From an uncultured Latescibacterota bacterium (GTDB lineage Bacteria > Latescibacterota > UBA2968): a stretch of 64,000 bases of DNA. The DNA is taken from positions 3,976,522 to 4,040,521 of the forward strand of contig OX638329.1 of assembly GCA_951812755.1 (NCBI GenBank). The letters run 5' to 3'. Shown here in pieces: positions 13,025-19,762 of the stretch. The position numbers were made by a program, and so were the translations under genes. The notes below the pieces were generated by a model. The model was not told the DNA's origin and ran no database searches. It saw nothing but the letters and a program-made list of their open reading frames with translations. Numbering within the stretch: the stretch's first letter is position 1; every line of letters begins with the position of its first letter.

Positions 13025-14503
13025 TTACGCCAACAGTGTGCGCTCTACTGCTTTGTGCCAGCCAGCCAGCAATGCTTCGCGGCGATCTTGCGACATCGCA
13101 GGCTCAAAGGTGCGTTGTGGTGGGTTAATATCGGCGAGCGCGTCAGCATCATCCCACACACCCGTCGCCAATCCCGCCAGCATCCCCGCCCCCAATGCAG
13201 TTGTTTCCACGCACTTGGGACGAATCACCGGCACATCCAGAATATCCGCTTGAAACTGCATCAAAAAATCATTCACCACAGCCCCACCATCCACGCGCAA
13301 ACTCGCCACAGACTGCCCGGCATCGGCGGCCATCGCATGGACGAGATCGGCGGATTGATAGGCAATGGACTCCAGGGCTGCGCGCACGAGATGTGCACGC
13401 CCGGTGCCGCGCGTAAGTCCGACAATCACTCCCCGTGCATCCGCATCCCAGTGCGGCGCGCCCAAGCCGGTAAATGCGGGGACAAGATACACGCCCCCCG
13501 TATCGTCAATCGCCTGGGACAGAGCCTCAGTCTCAGCGGCGGTTTCAATAATCCCCAATCCATCGCGCAGCCACTGAACCGTTGCCCCCGCGCTAAACAC
13601 CGCGCCCTCAAGCGCGTGGGATACGCGCCCAGAAGGTCCGCACGCAAGCGTCGTCAACAAACCATGCGCGGACGGCACCGCCCGATCACCCGTTTGAAAA
13701 AGTGTAAAACACCCCGTGCCATACGTATTTTTAATATCACCTGCGCGAACGCCGCGTTGCCCAAAAAGCGCGGCTTGCTGATCGCCCGCAATCCCCCCAA
13801 TGGGAATGCCCGCAGGCAAAATGCCCAAATCTGCAGTAGTCCCAAATTCCCCAACCGATGATCGCACTTCGGGGAGTATGCCCACGGGAATATCAAAAAC
13901 TTCCAATAATCCGCTATCCCATGCCCTCCCGTGAATATTGTAAATCATCGTGCGCGATGCATTGGTATAATCAGTCGCATGAACAGCCCCTCCCGTGAGT
14001 TTGTACAATAAAAAACTATCCACGGTGCCAAAACACACCTCGCCCCGCTCCGCACGCGCACGCAGACCATAGACGCGGTCGAGTAACCACACAATCTTAC
14101 TCGCAGAAAAATAAGCGTCAATAACCAACCCCGTCTTTTCACGCACCATGTCTTCGAAGCCATCTGCGCGATATTGGGCACACAAATCCGCCGTGCGCCG
14201 GCACTGCCAGACAATCGCGTCGTGTACGGGTTCACCTGTTCTCCAATCCCACAAAACAGTTGTCTCGCGCTGATTGGCAATACCAATGCCTTTTATTTCT
14301 GAGGCATCTATCCCCGCCTCTGTGATTGCTATACCAATAACTTCCAGTGTCGTATTCCATATCTCTACTGTGTCGTGTGACACCCAGCCGGGACGCGGAA
14401 AAATCTGTCGAAACTCTGAATATCCTCGCCCCAAAATTTCCCCTTGAGAACCCAACACCAACGCGGTTGTCCCCGTTGTGCCCTGATCAATGCTCAAAAT
14501 CAT
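13025..14503 (-). CDS. glpK: Glycerol kinase
   Basis: Phosphorylates glycerol to sn-glycerol-3-phosphate with ATP (FGGY family, cytoplasm). The 492 residues match the family's usual ~495-500. Visible signatures are 'ILSIDQGTTGTTALV' at the N-terminus (ATP phosphate-1 motif), 'GIANQRETTVLWD' and 'IVWQCRRT' (glycerol site), 'GGIAGDQQAALFGQ' and 'KNTYGTGCF', 'LVPAFTGLGAPHWDADARG', and 'LRVDGGAVVNDFLMQFQAD'. The start ATG overlaps the TGA of lpxH (ATGA) and has AGGAG just upstream, so the two are translationally coupled. No glycerol transporter or GlpD is nearby. Confidence 0.95.
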   Translation of the reverse strand: MILSIDQGTTGTTALVLGSQGEILGRGYSEFRQIFPRPGWVSHDTVEIWNTTLEVIGIAITEAGIDASEIKGIGIANQRETTVLWDWRTGEPVHDAIVWQCRRTADLCAQYRADGFEDMVREKTGLVIDAYFSASKIVWLLDRVYGLRARAERGEVCFGTVDSFLLYKLTGGAVHATDYTNASRTMIYNIHGRAWDSGLLEVFDIPVGILPEVRSSVGEFGTTADLGILPAGIPIGGIAGDQQAALFGQRGVRAGDIKNTYGTGCFTLFQTGDRAVPSAHGLLTTLACGPSGRVSHALEGAVFSAGATVQWLRDGLGIIETAAETEALSQAIDDTGGVYLVPAFTGLGAPHWDADARGVIVGLTRGTGRAHLVRAALESIAYQSADLVHAMAADAGQSVASLRVDGGAVVNDFLMQFQADILDVPVIRPKCVETTALGAGMLAGLATGVWDDADALADINPPQRTFEPAMSQDRREALLAGWHKAVERTLLA

Positions 14504-15282
14504 GTATGATCTCCTGTATCAGCAGGTTTTTCCGGTGCCGTATGCCAGTGCTTTAAGGCAATCTCGCCCTGTTCGAGCACAGCATAAGAGTCGTATCTCA
14601 TCCAATCGCCCAACACAACAAGTATTCCGCTATCCAAGGCTTCAACAATCAGCGCGTGATAGTGTCCACAAATCACAAAATCAAATCCCTCGGCAATTTT
14701 CTCGCCCGCGCTTTTGAGAAAATATGAAGGCAAATATATTTTCTTTTTTTTTCGCGTTCCTTTTTTTGTACCGACGTCAGAAGACCGAGACACAAAACGC
14801 GCCAGATAAGCACCGATATCTGGATGTAACCACCGGAAGAGGGCGATACAAAGAGGATGACTCAAAATGCGTCGCCGCAGTTCAAATTTCCAATTTTGCT
14901 GAAAAATATCGCCGTGTGTCACATACAGGCGGCGATTCTGATGCACGACATCGCAAAAAAGTCCGGGAAGTTCTACACCCACTTGCTCGGATAAATAGCC
15001 CCCCAGCCAGCTATCGTGGTTACCCGGCAGATAAATGACGCGCGTTCCACTTTGAACAAGGTGATACAGTTCAAAGATCACACGCGCGCCATGTGCGGGG
15101 ATGACGGACCGATATTCAAACCAAAAATCGAAAAGATCACCCACTATATACAGACACTCGGCATCTTTGCGAATGGCGCGTAGAAAATTGATCAGCGCGT
15201 CTTCCCGAACGCGCGGTAGGCGGATAAATTTACCCCCACCTATATGCGCGTCAGAAATAAAATAAACTTTGTCTTTTTTCAT
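14500..15282 (-). CDS. lpxH: UDP-2,3-diacylglucosamine diphosphatase family metallophosphatase
   Basis: LpxH hydrolyses UDP-2,3-diacylglucosamine to lipid X and UMP at the inner membrane during lipid A synthesis. The 260-residue sequence holds the dinuclear-metal motifs in order: 'SDAHIGG' (~10), 'GDLFDFW' (~47), 'GNHDSWLG' (~86), 'THGD' (~120) and 'GHYH' (~200). A basic patch 'KKGTRKKKK' in the middle could contact membrane lipid. It overlaps glpK by 4 bp. LpxH and its relatives differ mostly in substrate, so the metallophosphatase call is firm and the LpxH assignment likely. Confidence 0.8.
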   Translation of the reverse strand: MKKDKVYFISDAHIGGGKFIRLPRVREDALINFLRAIRKDAECLYIVGDLFDFWFEYRSVIPAHGARVIFELYHLVQSGTRVIYLPGNHDSWLGGYLSEQVGVELPGLFCDVVHQNRRLYVTHGDIFQQNWKFELRRRILSHPLCIALFRWLHPDIGAYLARFVSRSSDVGTKKGTRKKKKIYLPSYFLKSAGEKIAEGFDFVICGHYHALIVEALDSGILVVLGDWMRYDSYAVLEQGEIALKHWHTAPEKPADTGDHT

Positions 15283-15322: not shown

Positions 15323-15382
15323 GTAGGAGCGGCATCCCTGCCGCGACTATCCCCACTCCGTCTATTCGTCTATTCGTCTATG
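15323..15382. repeat. REP-like palindrome followed by 8-bp tandem repeat
   Basis: At 15329-15344 gcggca-tccc-tgccgc forms a 6-bp stem with a 4-base loop, inside a 'gtaggagcggcatccctgcc' context that I know as a dispersed intergenic repeat type. At 15359-15382 cgtctatt is repeated (cgtctatt, cgtctatt, cgtctatg), and the last unit forms the final codons of the helicase gene. Located downstream of the helicase and upstream of lpxH on the minus strand, so it may act in transcription termination or RNA stability. Confidence 0.6.
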
Positions 15383-18300
15383 AACTGGCCTGAGAATCGG
15401 CCAGTTGTACCTCGTTCCGCCCCTTCGCGTTCTAAACCGAGTTCATCCCAGAAGCGAGAGGGCACCATATTTCGGCCCGGACGATGCTGCACACAGGAAA
15501 GCGTGAGGCGATCCATTGCGCGGGTGATCCCCACGTACAACAACCTGCGCTGTTCAGCTAAATCTGCGCTGTTCAAGGCGCGTGCATTGGGCAAAATGCG
15601 ATCTTCGAGGCCGCAAATATAGACTTCTCGAAACTCAAGCCCCTTTGCCGCGTGCAACGTGAGCAAATGCACAGCATCGCGGTCTGGGGTATCCAATTCG
15701 ACTTTATAGAGATCGGCAAAATCGAGCAAATTGCGAATGCCCTCCTGGAGAGATGGCGCGGCGGCACCGTGGCGTTCGCACAGGTCTCGAAAGCGCTGAA
15801 TCTGATCGGGGGCGTGCAATGCGAGTACATCAGGACGTGGATCTTCGCCGAGCAACATCCGCGTCTGCCCCCGCAGTCGGTCGGCATCCAATCGAGGAAA
15901 TTGCTGTACGAGATTGCGAATACACAAATTAGCCGGTCCCAAAAGACGCTGCGCCCCCAGGTTGAAATGTACGTGTTCTTCGCGGGTAAACTCCGCGTTC
16001 CTTGCGCCATCACGCGCGCGAAAAAGCAAACCCAGAGCAACTTGATCCAAAAGGCGCTCATGCGTCATGCACCGATAGCGAGAAGCGCGTTCTTTTTTCA
16101 TAGCTTCAAACACGCGATACAAAGCCAATGCTCGCGCAAGTGCCGGTGGGTCGTTTGGGTCTGACGCAATATCATACCGCTCGCAAAGAGGACGCAAATC
16201 GCGTGTAGCGGTCGCGCCATAGCTTCGCGCCATAGGCAATATATCAACCGTCGGATTGGGCATACGGGACCTGCCATTGCGACGGGCTTCGCGGTGCAAA
16301 ACTTGAAAATCGAATGCATAACCATTATGAGCGACCAGAATGTCAATACCGACAAACGCCTGAAACGCGAGATAAATCTCCTGAAATGTCGGAGCCGTAC
16401 CTTTATTTTCCCGCAAACGCACAGGAGAATAAAACGTATCGACAACACGCCCATCTCGCACACGCACAGCACCCAGACCCGTAATTTGTGCATGATCGGG
16501 ATCATCACTCGCGGTTTCCAGTGCAAATGCAGTGTATTCCGGCATATACACTGGCAAATCGACACAGCGGATCGCCTGACACAATTTGAGAGCAGCGAGC
16601 ATCGCACCGCACGCCAGGCCGCCCAGATGTAGAAAGTGCTCGGGCGTTTTCGGTGGATCTTCGTCGAATGATAAAATCAGAGTATCGGATAAAACATCCA
16701 ATCGGCTGCCGGGCACAGCCTCTCGTATGATGAGACCCGGCCGCGCCAGCGCATCCCTGATCAGAGTTGTGAGCATGTGCCGCAGCACCTCATCTCGACA
16801 CGCCACATACAAGGTGCCGCCCCTGCGCCAGAGCGGCAACAGGCGATTCAGAGCGGTATCGAGACCCGAAAAATCGAGCGGATCTACAATATCCTCGAGA
16901 TGATTCTTCAGGGATGGCAACTCCGATGTATTCAATTGGTCCAGAATATCATCCACCAGATGGGACAAAGATGCCACCGCGCCTCTTTGCACGGCATTGT
17001 GTACCACGCCTGCCAGCCCCAGTGCGCGTTCCACATCAACACCCTCTTCTTCCGAAACCGTTCGCGGATATAGAAAAGCCGCTTGTTTGAAACTGCCAAT
17101 ATTTTTTTGTTGCTGAAATCCCCGCACCGCCGGATATAATTTTGGATCCACAGCTTCGAGTTCGCGCCGCAAAAACAACTCGAGGCTCGCATCATTTGCG
17201 CCATCGAGAGCGTATCGCAATACAGACAGAGCGCGGCGGATCACGGGCTGGTCGAACAAGCCCCTGCGATGTGCCATCAGGCAGGGTACGTTGGCGCGCA
17301 TAAAAATGCGTTCGAGTTCGCTACCTATTGCGTGTTGGGGATAAAGCACCGCAATATCCCGATGAATTAGATCCGGTGTTTCCCTGATGCGATCCCATAT
17401 ATCGCCCGCAATAAACTGGCCTTCTTCCTCAAACGTGTCAAAAGCCATCCCCCGCACGCGGCGTCCAGACCTCTGGGTATGGATACTGCGTTCAAACAAC
17501 ACGTCATTCTTGGCGATAAACACGCGCGCCAGATGCAAAATTTCTGCGGATGATCGGTAGTTCTCCTCCAAAAAAACAGGTAGGTGCCCTTTGAGAAAAT
17601 CATCTTGAAATTGTTCGATATGTTCTGGCCTTGCATGACGCCACCCGTAAATAGATTGCTCGTCATCTGCAACTACAAAAACACTGCGGTGGGCCGCGCT
17701 CAAAAGATGAACGAGGGCGTATTGAACCGGATCGGTATCTTGAAACTCATCGACGAGGATGTGTTGAAATTGCGCGCGGTAATCCGCCAGAATCTGGCGA
17801 TGCGAATGAAGCAAGTCATGCGCGAGAAAGATGAGATCGTCAAAATCGATCAATCGATTTTTCTTTAGCTCGACTTCGTACTGATCGAGCAATGCCGCAT
17901 CCCCTTTTTTCATCGGAACATGCGGTTTGTATCGCCGCTGCCATTTCAGACGATTCACATTTTGCATCACATTATTCAAATTGCTTTCATTGGGATTCAG
18001 GCGTGGAAAAGCGCGATAGATCAGCGTGCGCTGAAGGTCTTCATCGGCGATGCCAAAATGAGGTGGCAATCCAACCGTTTCTCGATGCTGGCGCAGCACT
18101 GAGATACAAAACCTGTGAAATGTACCTGCGGTAACAGCCTCCGCAGCGTCTTTGCTCAATGTGCGCGACAAGCGGATTTGCAGTTCTGCCGCGGCTTTAT
18201 TTGTAAATGTAAGCGCGAGTATATTTTCTGGATGGACGCCGCACCGCGAGACCAGATACGCAATGCGTTCGGTCAGCACCCGCGTCTTCCCCGTGCCCGG

Positions 18301-18387
18301 TCCGGCCAGTACGAGGACGGGACCTATCGGCGCGGTGACGGCTTCGCGCTGGCGTGCATTTAATGTGATGGGATCGAGTTCTGGCAT
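15370..18387 (-). CDS. UvrD/PcrA-type superfamily 1 helicase with inserted degenerate DnaQ-like exonuclease domain
   Basis: About 1005 residues from ATG 18387 (one base past the upstream stop; ATG 18399 is an alternative), against ~720 for PcrA. SF1 motifs: 'AGPGTGKT' (28-35), 'LVDEFQDTDP' (~210), 'ADDEQSIYGWRHA' (~245), 'LEENYRSS' (~275), 'TLHAAKGLEF' (~910) and 'EQRRLLYVGITRA' (~945). Between the IV and V motifs, at about 610-760, lies a DnaQ/DEDD-like domain: 'FALETAS' where active enzymes have FDLETTG, 'AHNGYAFDFQVL' with its Asp kept, and a last motif lacking the catalytic His and Asp. The exonuclease part is therefore probably structural. Likely an ATP-dependent 3'-5' DNA translocase for repair. 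Confidence 0.85.
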   Translation of the reverse strand: MPELDPITLNARQREAVTAPIGPVLVLAGPGTGKTRVLTERIAYLVSRCGVHPENILALTFTNKAAAELQIRLSRTLSKDAAEAVTAGTFHRFCISVLRQHRETVGLPPHFGIADEDLQRTLIYRAFPRLNPNESNLNNVMQNVNRLKWQRRYKPHVPMKKGDAALLDQYEVELKKNRLIDFDDLIFLAHDLLHSHRQILADYRAQFQHILVDEFQDTDPVQYALVHLLSAAHRSVFVVADDEQSIYGWRHARPEHIEQFQDDFLKGHLPVFLEENYRSSAEILHLARVFIAKNDVLFERSIHTQRSGRRVRGMAFDTFEEEGQFIAGDIWDRIRETPDLIHRDIAVLYPQHAIGSELERIFMRANVPCLMAHRRGLFDQPVIRRALSVLRYALDGANDASLELFLRRELEAVDPKLYPAVRGFQQQKNIGSFKQAAFLYPRTVSEEEGVDVERALGLAGVVHNAVQRGAVASLSHLVDDILDQLNTSELPSLKNHLEDIVDPLDFSGLDTALNRLLPLWRRGGTLYVACRDEVLRHMLTTLIRDALARPGLIIREAVPGSRLDVLSDTLILSFDEDPPKTPEHFLHLGGLACGAMLAALKLCQAIRCVDLPVYMPEYTAFALETASDDPDHAQITGLGAVRVRDGRVVDTFYSPVRLRENKGTAPTFQEIYLAFQAFVGIDILVAHNGYAFDFQVLHREARRNGRSRMPNPTVDILPMARSYGATATRDLRPLCERYDIASDPNDPPALARALALYRVFEAMKKERASRYRCMTHERLLDQVALGLLFRARDGARNAEFTREEHVHFNLGAQRLLGPANLCIRNLVQQFPRLDADRLRGQTRMLLGEDPRPDVLALHAPDQIQRFRDLCERHGAAAPSLQEGIRNLLDFADLYKVELDTPDRDAVHLLTLHAAKGLEFREVYICGLEDRILPNARALNSADLAEQRRLLYVGITRAMDRLTLSCVQHRPGRNMVPSRFWDELGLEREGAERGTTGRFSGQFIDE

Positions 18388-18388
18388 A

Positions 18389-19762
18389 TTAGCGTTCATA
18401 GATGTTAGGAGACCAGTCAACGACATCGAGTTGCTGCTTGACAAGCACGGCTTTATACGGCGGCACATTTTTCATCAGCACCACGCCCGCGCCCACCATC
18501 GCACATGGCCCCACAATGCGACCGGGCATAATCATCGCACCGATACCCGTACGCGAGTAATCCCCAAACAACACACCGGTAAAACCGGGTGCTTTTCGGC
18601 GAATACCCTGAACTTCGACCTCAATCTCCGCATCGTCAAAGCGCAGCGTGCCCACCTGTGTCCCCGCGCCTATTTCTGCGCGCTCGCCAAAAATGCCCGA
18701 AAGCTGAATCTGATGGGTCACGCGACCTTCTTCGAGCATAATACCGCTAAACTCGCCCAAATAGGTGATATGACAGTTGGTATCTACCGTACCCGATACT
18801 TTGGCAAAAGGGCCAATTTTGCAGCGGTCGCCGATCACAGTACGGGATGCGATGTGAGAGCCTTCCAATATCTGCGTATTTTTCCCTATCCAGACCGGTC
18901 CCTCAATATAGGCATCTCGGGCAATCGTGGTATTTTCATCGACAAAGATAGGACCGCGAATGCGGGCGTCAGGATCGACCGTAGCCGTTGGCGCAACAAC
19001 GGACTCTGTGAGTCCATCAGCCATTTCAGCAAGTGCCATAAACGCGACATTTTTTGGATGCCAGGGCAGGTCCATATCGAACCAGGGCCCGGGCAATTCG
19101 GCCGCGATAAGCGCGTGTCCTTCGCCATAGAGCAATGGGATAACATCGCAAATTTCCTGCCCCTCAGGCGGAAAAATACCATATTGGGTTCTCGGTACAA
19201 AATCGGAGGTATTGCCCAGATCGGACAAAATTTCATTTTTGAAAACATAGAGACCAGACAGTGCCTGTCCCGATCCGCCTCGGGGTTTATAGGTATAGGA
19301 AGATAAGCTCTGGTCCTTTTCAACGTGTGCGCGTATATGAGATGAGAGATCGTCAACCTGGACAATGCCAGCAACACCAGAACAGTTTCTCTCTCTAAAC
19401 GCATCTAACAGATGTGGGATTGCACCGCCACTAAAAAAAATATCTCCGAAAATGACCAGAACATCATCAGTGCCAATAAAATCGGACGCCAACCCCACCG
19501 CATGCGCCGTGCCTTTTGGCTGCGGTTGCTCAATATAAGTAATTTGACAGCCAAAGCGTTGCCCATTGCCAAAATAATTGCGCGCTCGCCCCCCTCGATG
19601 CCCCACCACAATGCCGATATCCGTAATATTTGCATCAATCAGGCGCGAAACCGTCCACTCCAAAAGCGGGCGATTGCATATTGGAAACATCGGCTTGGGA
19701 CGAAAGACATTAAATGGAAAAAAACGTTCGCCTTTTCCCGCCGCGAGAATAAGTGCTTTCAT
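18389..19762 (-). CDS. Sugar-1-phosphate nucleotidyltransferase with left-handed beta-helix domain (GlmU/Glc-1-P type)
   Basis: The 457-residue protein has an N-terminal nucleotidyltransferase domain (1-~235) with 'LAAGKGERFFP' and 'RPKPMFPICNRPLLEW', the NTP-binding signature, and 'VIFGDIFF' at the metal site. The C-terminal half (about 250-440) is a hexapeptide-repeat beta-helix ('ATVDPDARIRGPIFVDENT', 'IGKNTQILEGSHI', 'GPCAMVGAGVVLMKNVPP'). This layout fits enzymes making NDP-sugars for envelope polysaccharides; the acyltransferase half of true GlmU may be replaced by a regulatory helix. The start has CCGGAG upstream. Its stop is 1-2 bp from the helicase start, giving one minus-strand unit down to glpK. 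Confidence 0.75.
   Translation of the reverse strand: MKALILAAGKGERFFPFNVFRPKPMFPICNRPLLEWTVSRLIDANITDIGIVVGHRGGRARNYFGNGQRFGCQITYIEQPQPKGTAHAVGLASDFIGTDDVLVIFGDIFFSGGAIPHLLDAFRERNCSGVAGIVQVDDLSSHIRAHVEKDQSLSSYTYKPRGGSGQALSGLYVFKNEILSDLGNTSDFVPRTQYGIFPPEGQEICDVIPLLYGEGHALIAAELPGPWFDMDLPWHPKNVAFMALAEMADGLTESVVAPTATVDPDARIRGPIFVDENTTIARDAYIEGPVWIGKNTQILEGSHIASRTVIGDRCKIGPFAKVSGTVDTNCHITYLGEFSGIMLEEGRVTHQIQLSGIFGERAEIGAGTQVGTLRFDDAEIEVEVQGIRRKAPGFTGVLFGDYSRTGIGAMIMPGRIVGPCAMVGAGVVLMKNVPPYKAVLVKQQLDVVDWSPNIYER

Follow-up and report, generated by a model that had tools for sequence, protein, structure and literature searches.

A degenerate DnaQ-type exonuclease domain inside the 2B arm of a UvrD-type helicase from one genus of Latescibacterota

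The superfamily 1A (SF1A) helicases UvrD, PcrA, Rep, and UvrD1 share a motor and a plan of four subdomains designated 1A, 1B, 2A, and 2B. The SF1A motors RecB, AddA, AddB, and AdnA-AdnB carry a nuclease module, which is a C-terminal domain of the RecB/PD-(D/E)XK type. The 2B subdomain of UvrD-type helicases is described as a regulatory and dimerizing arm that swings by 130–160 degrees, holds the monomer in an autoinhibited state on a junction, and mediates contacts both with partners and in the formation of activating dimers (PMC13238157). In pExoDinG, a helicase is associated with a DEDD exonuclease domain that keeps two catalytic acids, and the role proposed for this dead domain is structural or regulatory (PMC11981726). 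ExoDinG, including Staphylococcus aureus DinG (8zef), likewise combines a helicase with an exonuclease domain, which is reported to be active in that case (PMC12345164). A nuclease-type domain that has lost its metal ligands, the PHP domain of the α subunit of Escherichia coli DNA polymerase III (Pol III), is reported to matter for the stability and activity of the DNA machine to which it belongs (PMC3666897). Here, we analyzed a helicase gene located in a stretch of 64,000 nucleotides, referred to as the window, from an uncultured Latescibacterota bacterium (contig OX638329.1, positions 3,976,522 to 4,040,521).

The window protein has the motor and the four-subdomain plan of UvrD, PcrA, Rep, and UvrD1, from which it differs by a 2B arm extended by about 357 residues (phmmer alignment with E. 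coli UvrD), an inserted DnaQ domain, and the absence of the GIG duplex contact. The nuclease of the RecB, AddA, AddB, and AdnA-AdnB proteins is C-terminal, whereas the DnaQ fold of the window family is located inside 2B. The closest known parallel is pExoDinG, which is a superfamily 2 (SF2) helicase of the DinG/XPD type with an N-terminal domain closest to DEDDy-type folds (PMC11981726), whereas the window protein belongs to SF1A and harbors a DEDDh-derived domain inside 2B. The window protein is not a member of pExoDinG since its motor is that of an SF1A UvrD rather than of a DinG/XPD SF2 helicase. ExoDinG and S. aureus DinG also differ from the window protein, as they are SF2 helicases of 5′-3′ polarity with an N-terminal exonuclease, and the PHP domain differs both in fold and in enzyme. 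A UvrD helicase with a DnaQ domain inside 2B was not found among the titles and openings of abstracts listed by the literature searches, some of which had another purpose or showed part of their results, subscription journals being largely outside these searches.

The open frame is located on the minus strand, from 18468 to 15370, and comprises 1032 codons from the ATG at 18468. Translation is likely to start at the ATG at 18387 (MPELDP) since the open frames of the same-genus orthologues L011, L012, and L016 start two residues upstream of that methionine. The resulting protein (P0001) consists of 1005 residues and ends at the stop at 15370; residue numbers refer to this form, the numbering of the 1032-residue frame running 27 higher. 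In the latter frame, Pfam domains UvrD-helicase (residues 36–291, E 4e-78), RNase_T (651–770, E 2.2e-8), and UvrD_C (E 3e-40) were all detected above the curated cut-offs, RNase_T being located between the two others. Reading of the sequence revealed the motor motifs GPGTGKT, VDEFQDTD, DDEQSIYGWR, LEENYRSS, LTLHAAKGLEF, and RRLLYVGITRAMD, and the protein shows the defining features of the UvrD/Rep SF1A superfamily, namely a Walker A motif, a DExQ box, and motif VI in addition to the two UvrD domains detected by Pfam. The motif names and the exact subdomain borders are those that we take to apply to this helicase. An AlphaFold2 (AF2) model of the full protein (predicted local distance difference test, pLDDT, 85.0; predicted template modeling score, pTM, 0.80) had as best structural match Deinococcus radiodurans UvrD (4c2u; Z 42.5, root-mean-square deviation 4.3, 609 of 658 residues), and the range aligned, 6–992, displays the 1A-1B-2A-2B fold. 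The scores were far below the NCBIfam equivalog cut-offs for pcrA (382.7 versus 911.2 bits), rep (359.7 versus 951.45 bits), and uvrD (347.9 versus 1144.45 bits). The PADLOC models for GajB, the Gabija helicase encoded beside GajA, matched with up to 307.4 bits, as expected for any UvrD; the neighboring genes inspected resemble those for LpxH, a glycerol kinase, and a nucleotidyltransferase. These data place the window protein among the SF1A helicases of the UvrD/Rep/PcrA type, with a motor that looks complete; a UvrD-type helicase had been proposed by a previous examination of the sequence without database searches (the sequence-only reading). The features of the gene, all on the minus strand, are as follows.

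15370–18387, minus strand: UvrD/Rep/PcrA-like SF1A helicase with a probable internal pseudo-exonuclease, 1005 amino acids (sequence, Pfam, phmmer, AF2)
17257–18387, minus strand: motor part 1 (1A, 1B, first half of 2A), residues 1–377, with GPGTGKT, VDEFQDTD, DDEQSIYGWR, and LEENYRSS (sequence, Pfam UvrD-helicase)
15679–17256, minus strand: enlarged 2B region, residues 378–903 (phmmer comparison, AF2)
16552–16827, minus strand: small alpha/beta segment of 2B directly before the DnaQ domain, residues 521–612 (alignment, AF2 strands and helices)
16072–16551, minus strand: degenerate, predicted DnaQ/RNase_T (DEDDh) domain, residues 613–772 (Pfam RNase_T, fold matches)
16516–16524, minus strand: Exo I remnant A622-L623-E624, D-x-E in relatives (alignment)
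16396–16419, minus strand: site of a 15-residue deletion, residues 657–664 (alignment)
16309–16311, minus strand: Exo II Asp, D693 (alignment)
16132–16149, minus strand: Exo III remnant P747-P-A-L-A-R752, H-R-A-L-D-D in L019 (alignment)
15433–15678, minus strand: motor part 2 (second half of 2A, motifs V and VI), residues 904–985, with LLTLHAAKGLEF and EQRRLLYVGITRAMD (sequence, Pfam, phmmer)

Comparison with E. coli UvrD (2is1) by phmmer aligned residues 8–429 of the window protein with UvrD residues 9–434 and residues 903–984 with UvrD residues 551–637. Between these stretches, from motif IV to motif V, the window protein has 473 residues versus 116 in E. coli UvrD. The RNase_T domain was also detected in the 2B stretch of the single window sequence (E 4.5e-9), with a bit score of 37.5 versus 100.0–127.2 in the four intact relatives scanned. 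Prediction of the structure of residues 378–903 alone (pLDDT 88.2, pTM 0.87) gave a model of 2B matching the PolC exonuclease (Z 20.1, 2.3 Å over 164 residues), Pol III epsilon (2ido; Z 19.6, 2.1 Å over 149 residues), and the exonuclease domain of S. aureus DinG (8zef; Z 18.9), in agreement with Foldseek. A profile of the family insert also matched the PolC exonuclease (2p1j, E 2.8e-43) and epsilon (1j53, E 9.7e-32). Residues 613–772 are therefore predicted to form a DnaQ (RNase_T, DEDDh) fold, in keeping with the claim, made from the letters only, of a DnaQ domain located between motifs IV and V in the 2B region. In the segment preceding this domain (residues 521–612), the window protein reads TLYVACRDEV, and most of the Calditrichota copies compared have IWVYH-like sequences. 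The E. coli UvrD stretch TRGIGDR was aligned by phmmer with LEAVDPK (residues 410–416, window positions 17140–17160), and GIG was also absent, as read by eye, from the corresponding place in 10 distant family copies. The lack of this duplex-contact stretch in 2B suggests that the arm may meet the duplex differently from that of E. coli UvrD in the family of UvrD helicases with an internal DEDDh domain.

The DEDDh positions are occupied in the window protein by A622, E624, D693, P747, and R752. The D-E-D-H-D set is accordingly incomplete: the Glu of Exo I and the Asp of Exo II are kept, and three residues are lost, the Asp of Exo I (position 622) and both the His (747) and the Asp (752) of Exo III. 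The sequence-only reading had identified these three losses exactly, as well as one retained Asp, but had mentioned neither the retention of E624 nor a deletion of 15 residues. This deletion is present in all 10 same-genus copies, beside an altered H-G-I segment; as aligned, it removes 8 residues before and 7 residues after the segment A-R-K-T-H-G-I of L019 (L-R-E-N-K-G-T in the window protein), the exact placement of the gaps depending on the alignment. The 10 copies, which originate from the genome of the window and from 9 of the 10 same-genus genomes searched, were all degenerate, nine reading AEDPR and one (L018) AEAPQ; E624 was fixed in 10/10 copies and D693 in 9/10, with an Ala in L018. 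No match was found in the remaining same-genus genome, G010 (95% complete, 470 contigs). Outside the genus, an alignment of homologues revealed a complete DEDHD set in all of the 54 sequences. These comprise three Latescibacterota copies (L019, L020, and L021, which are 69%, 60%, and 44% identical to the window protein, respectively), 10 loci from a pattern scan (L035–L044), and 41 from searches in Calditrichota and Gemmatimonadota. Sequencing or assembly error was rejected as an origin of the degeneracy, which is common to 10 genomes of the genus.

Relocation of the catalytic residues was also considered. No acidic residue was newly fixed at positions 620–626 or 747–753 of the 10 degenerate copies, none of which has a His at positions 738–760. 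The newly fixed acid nearest to the lost sites is at position 743, four residues before the lost His, where Asp or Glu is present in 10/10 degenerate copies and an acidic residue in 3/54 intact copies; other newly fixed acids are located at positions 700 and 761.

A compensating gain of another RNase_T-type exonuclease was rejected since PF00929 matches were similarly numerous in degenerate and intact genomes. Six of the 10 degenerate genomes were checked, five of which (G000, G002, G004, G006, and G007) had two matches and one (G008) a single match; the intact-relative genomes G011, G013, and G019 had two each. In the genome of the window, the only other RNase_T match (E ≤ 0.001), L069 (G000:C1:1543322-1543801), lies close to the beginning of a frame of approximately 955 amino acids, which probably encodes ExoDinG. 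At L069 and the loci L058–L074, the Exo II Asp is replaced by Glu (HQGRFETRFL-like) in 12 of the 17 loci, and in L058 by eye; in L074 (G012), the Exo III His is also lost.

The close named relatives of the window protein are encoded by metagenome-assembled genomes of Candidatus Latescibacterota, and the further relatives are found in Calditrichota and Gemmatimonadota. Profile searches (E ≤ 1e-40) for the insert region gave matches in 14 of the 64 genomes of Latescibacterota, of which 13 covered the whole region and one (G012) the exonuclease part only, in 22 of the 40 genomes belonging to the same phylum as G065 (Calditrichota), including 2 partial matches, and in 49 of 200 genomes, evenly drawn from a larger group, of the phylum of G069 (Gemmatimonadota). 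The names of the latter two phyla follow the records of the central loci L036 and L043. Many Gemmatimonadota matches started only at profile positions ~160–185 because the initial portion of 2B was too dissimilar, and one (G108) comprised only the exonuclease part, in a 371-amino-acid frame; 30 of the 49 matches were taken as loci and read. The location of the DnaQ domain between motifs IV and V was identical in all three phyla, as were the types of 2B segments flanking it. The internal position is thus not an accident of this gene, and the view that it is an oddity, put forward in the sequence-only reading, did not hold: the 54 sequences outside the genus all display this architecture. The genome-by-genome searches covered these three phyla, and one pattern scan of genome contigs extended beyond them, based on one exonuclease motif devoid of catalytic residues ([VIM]AHNGY[AG]F) and one 2B motif; the family may therefore be wider. 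In G012, a genome of the same family without a match over the full region, a 245-amino-acid frame contains a DnaQ domain matching the family profile (E 3.5e-44; L088, G012:C35:1731-2216), and may correspond to a stand-alone relative of the inserted domain.

Searches of phage, viral-contig, and plasmid sequences did not support a phage or plasmid helicase. None of 124 phage records covered 80% of the window protein, the best among the matches listed covering 61%. The 2B profile had 18 matches in viral contigs, all of them within residues 195–425 of the 519-residue query, corresponding to the exonuclease and its edges. None of 341 plasmid records covered 80% of the 2B region of L042 used as a query. 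A Nocardia plasmid match (H11, 25% identity) was not informative; in the three forward frames of L159, a Walker A pattern was absent from all open frames of 250 codons.

In total, 66 family rows were collected, 64 of which were included in the catalytic count. The two rows left out were L110, which lacks the DnaQ part, and L109, whose frame is split, the piece kept being the one without the DnaQ domain. Alignments and tree were based on 62 rows, L120 and L138 being additionally omitted. When the DnaQ columns were excluded from the tree, all 10 degenerate rows were on one side of a single branch (Shimodaira-Hasegawa-like approximate likelihood ratio test, SH-aLRT, 100), adjoining intact L019, then L020, and then L021. 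The tree requires a single loss of the catalytic set. We do not claim a deep branching order since the tree is rooted at the midpoint and the composition of many rows differs. L038 (G066), which is titled as a Caldisericaceae bacterium, grouped with the Calditrichota copies in the tree, and its genome was included in the search of that phylum; its NCBI label and GTDB placement seem to differ.

Two neighboring genes are located downstream from the helicase gene.

14500–15282, minus strand: LpxH-like phosphoesterase, downstream neighbor (gene-order comparison)
13025–14503, minus strand: glycerol kinase-like gene, next after the LpxH-like gene (gene-order comparison)

The names LpxH-like, glycerol kinase-like, and nucleotidyltransferase-like for the neighbors are those that we presume from their sequences. 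The order helicase, LpxH-like, and glycerol kinase-like is the same around the intact copies in L026 and L034, in which the LpxH-like gene directly follows; in L027, an LpxH-like gene is located about 1.7 kb after the helicase gene. The same gene order in intact relatives indicates that the copies are orthologues and that the exonuclease was lost in place. Since the domain is intact and at the same place in 54/54 sequences outside the genus, the loss occurred late, in one genus, from an exonuclease predicted to be catalytically active, as are those of the intact relatives. By these comparisons, the internal position of the exonuclease is an ancestral, old trait of the family, and its degeneracy is recent and local to one genus.

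The ratio of nonsynonymous to synonymous substitution rates (dN/dS), determined by the counting method NG86 for nine close same-genus copies, was 0.096 for the degenerate domain (residues 613–770; bootstrap 0.056–0.147), 0.083 for the rest of 2B, and 0.063 for the motor, the bootstrap ranges of the regions overlapping. Against L018, the values were 0.124, 0.088, and 0.071, respectively. The frames were open in 10/10 copies, and no indel was present within the domain. Retention as a folded domain, which the sequence-only reading had supposed, is in agreement with these data.

The domain is most likely a pseudo-exonuclease that persists as a structural or regulatory element of the 2B arm. We consider it probable that an ancestral 3′-5′ motor was combined with a trimming nuclease borne by 2B, that the genus gave up trimming, and that the dead domain was kept as the part of the 2B arm setting the balance of the helicase. 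In the ancestral and intact proteins, 3′-5′ translocation would be coupled to trimming of the 3′ end by a nuclease located on the swinging arm. In the genus of the window, trimming would have been abandoned and the dead domain retained because it is integral to the enlarged arm. A large domain built into a swinging arm should affect its motion, and the dead domain would thereby maintain the shape and stability of 2B and set the balance between the open and closed (autoinhibited and active) states. It may still touch single-stranded DNA or a partner, which is the least certain step.

Several observations weigh against this explanation. The ratio of amino acid distances in the domain to those in the rest of 2B had a median of 1.25 (0.54–1.86) in 45 overlapping, non-independent degenerate pairs versus 0.74 (0.51–1.05) in 23 intact pairs that were disjoint. 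In L018, moreover, a fourth catalytic residue is lost. The domain may therefore be undergoing slow erosion. In addition, 52 of the 62 rows of the AF2 alignments are intact relatives, which biases the model toward the DnaQ fold, although RNase_T was detected by Pfam in the window sequence by itself. Finally, the motifs of the pattern scan and the composition of the family profile (A3, with 13 intact rows and 2 degenerate ones) may have led to strongly decayed or exonuclease-less members being missed in other phyla. The substitution data show that the dead domain remains under purifying selection, although this selection, when compared with that on the rest of 2B, is weaker than in the catalytic relatives. 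We read this pattern as the disappearance of the catalytic constraint and the persistence of a constraint on the fold.

Purifying selection and the conservation of E624 and, in nine copies, of D693 would also be expected if the domain had acquired a task of its own, with a face binding nucleic acids or a partner that targets or gates the motor, as envisaged in the sequence-only reading. Binding of single-stranded DNA has been suggested for the analogous dead domain by the authors of pExoDinG (PMC11981726). This alternative is rather unlikely in our opinion, as the former catalytic neighborhood varies among the 10 copies (positions 621, 693, and several of 742–752). Furthermore, the 15-residue deletion and the change in H-G-I affect a region that, in DEDDh structures, helps hold the 3′ end.

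The faster relative evolution and the fourth loss in L018 are what would be expected from passive decay, in which an exonuclease that is no longer needed vanishes slowly because it is difficult to excise cleanly from within 2B. Low dN/dS ratios (~0.1), open frames, and the absence of indels in the domain argue against this possibility. The loss also predates the divergence of L018 from the other copies (82% identity over the insert region and 84% overall), and much time for decay was therefore available. We regard passive decay as distinctly improbable. Persistence of nuclease activity, by means of relocated catalytic residues or one-metal chemistry, is hardly credible despite the Glu and Exo II Asp remaining in nine copies and the acid at position 743, since neither an acid at the lost positions nor a nearby His was gained and L018 also lacks the Exo II Asp.

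Retention of the dead domain as a part of the 2B arm thus remains the explanation that we favor. A more far-reaching proposal, which we consider doubtful, is that rotation of 2B switches between unwinding and 3′-end trimming in the three phyla, which belong to the Fibrobacteres-Chlorobi-Bacteroidetes (FCB) group, and that the dead domain has become, in one Latescibacterota genus, a non-catalytic end gate or sensor controlling the motor.

The description given by the sequence-only reading was correct in nearly all respects. The novelty lies in the local loss of catalysis, the internal exonuclease itself being a trait of the family. A nuclease built into 2B matters because 2B is the regulatory element of UvrD helicases (PMC13238157). 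The 10 copies with a dead domain and the catalytically complete domains of L019, L020, and L021 form a natural set for separating the role of cutting from the mere presence of the domain. In this genus, a former enzyme module would have become a non-cutting component of a larger machine.

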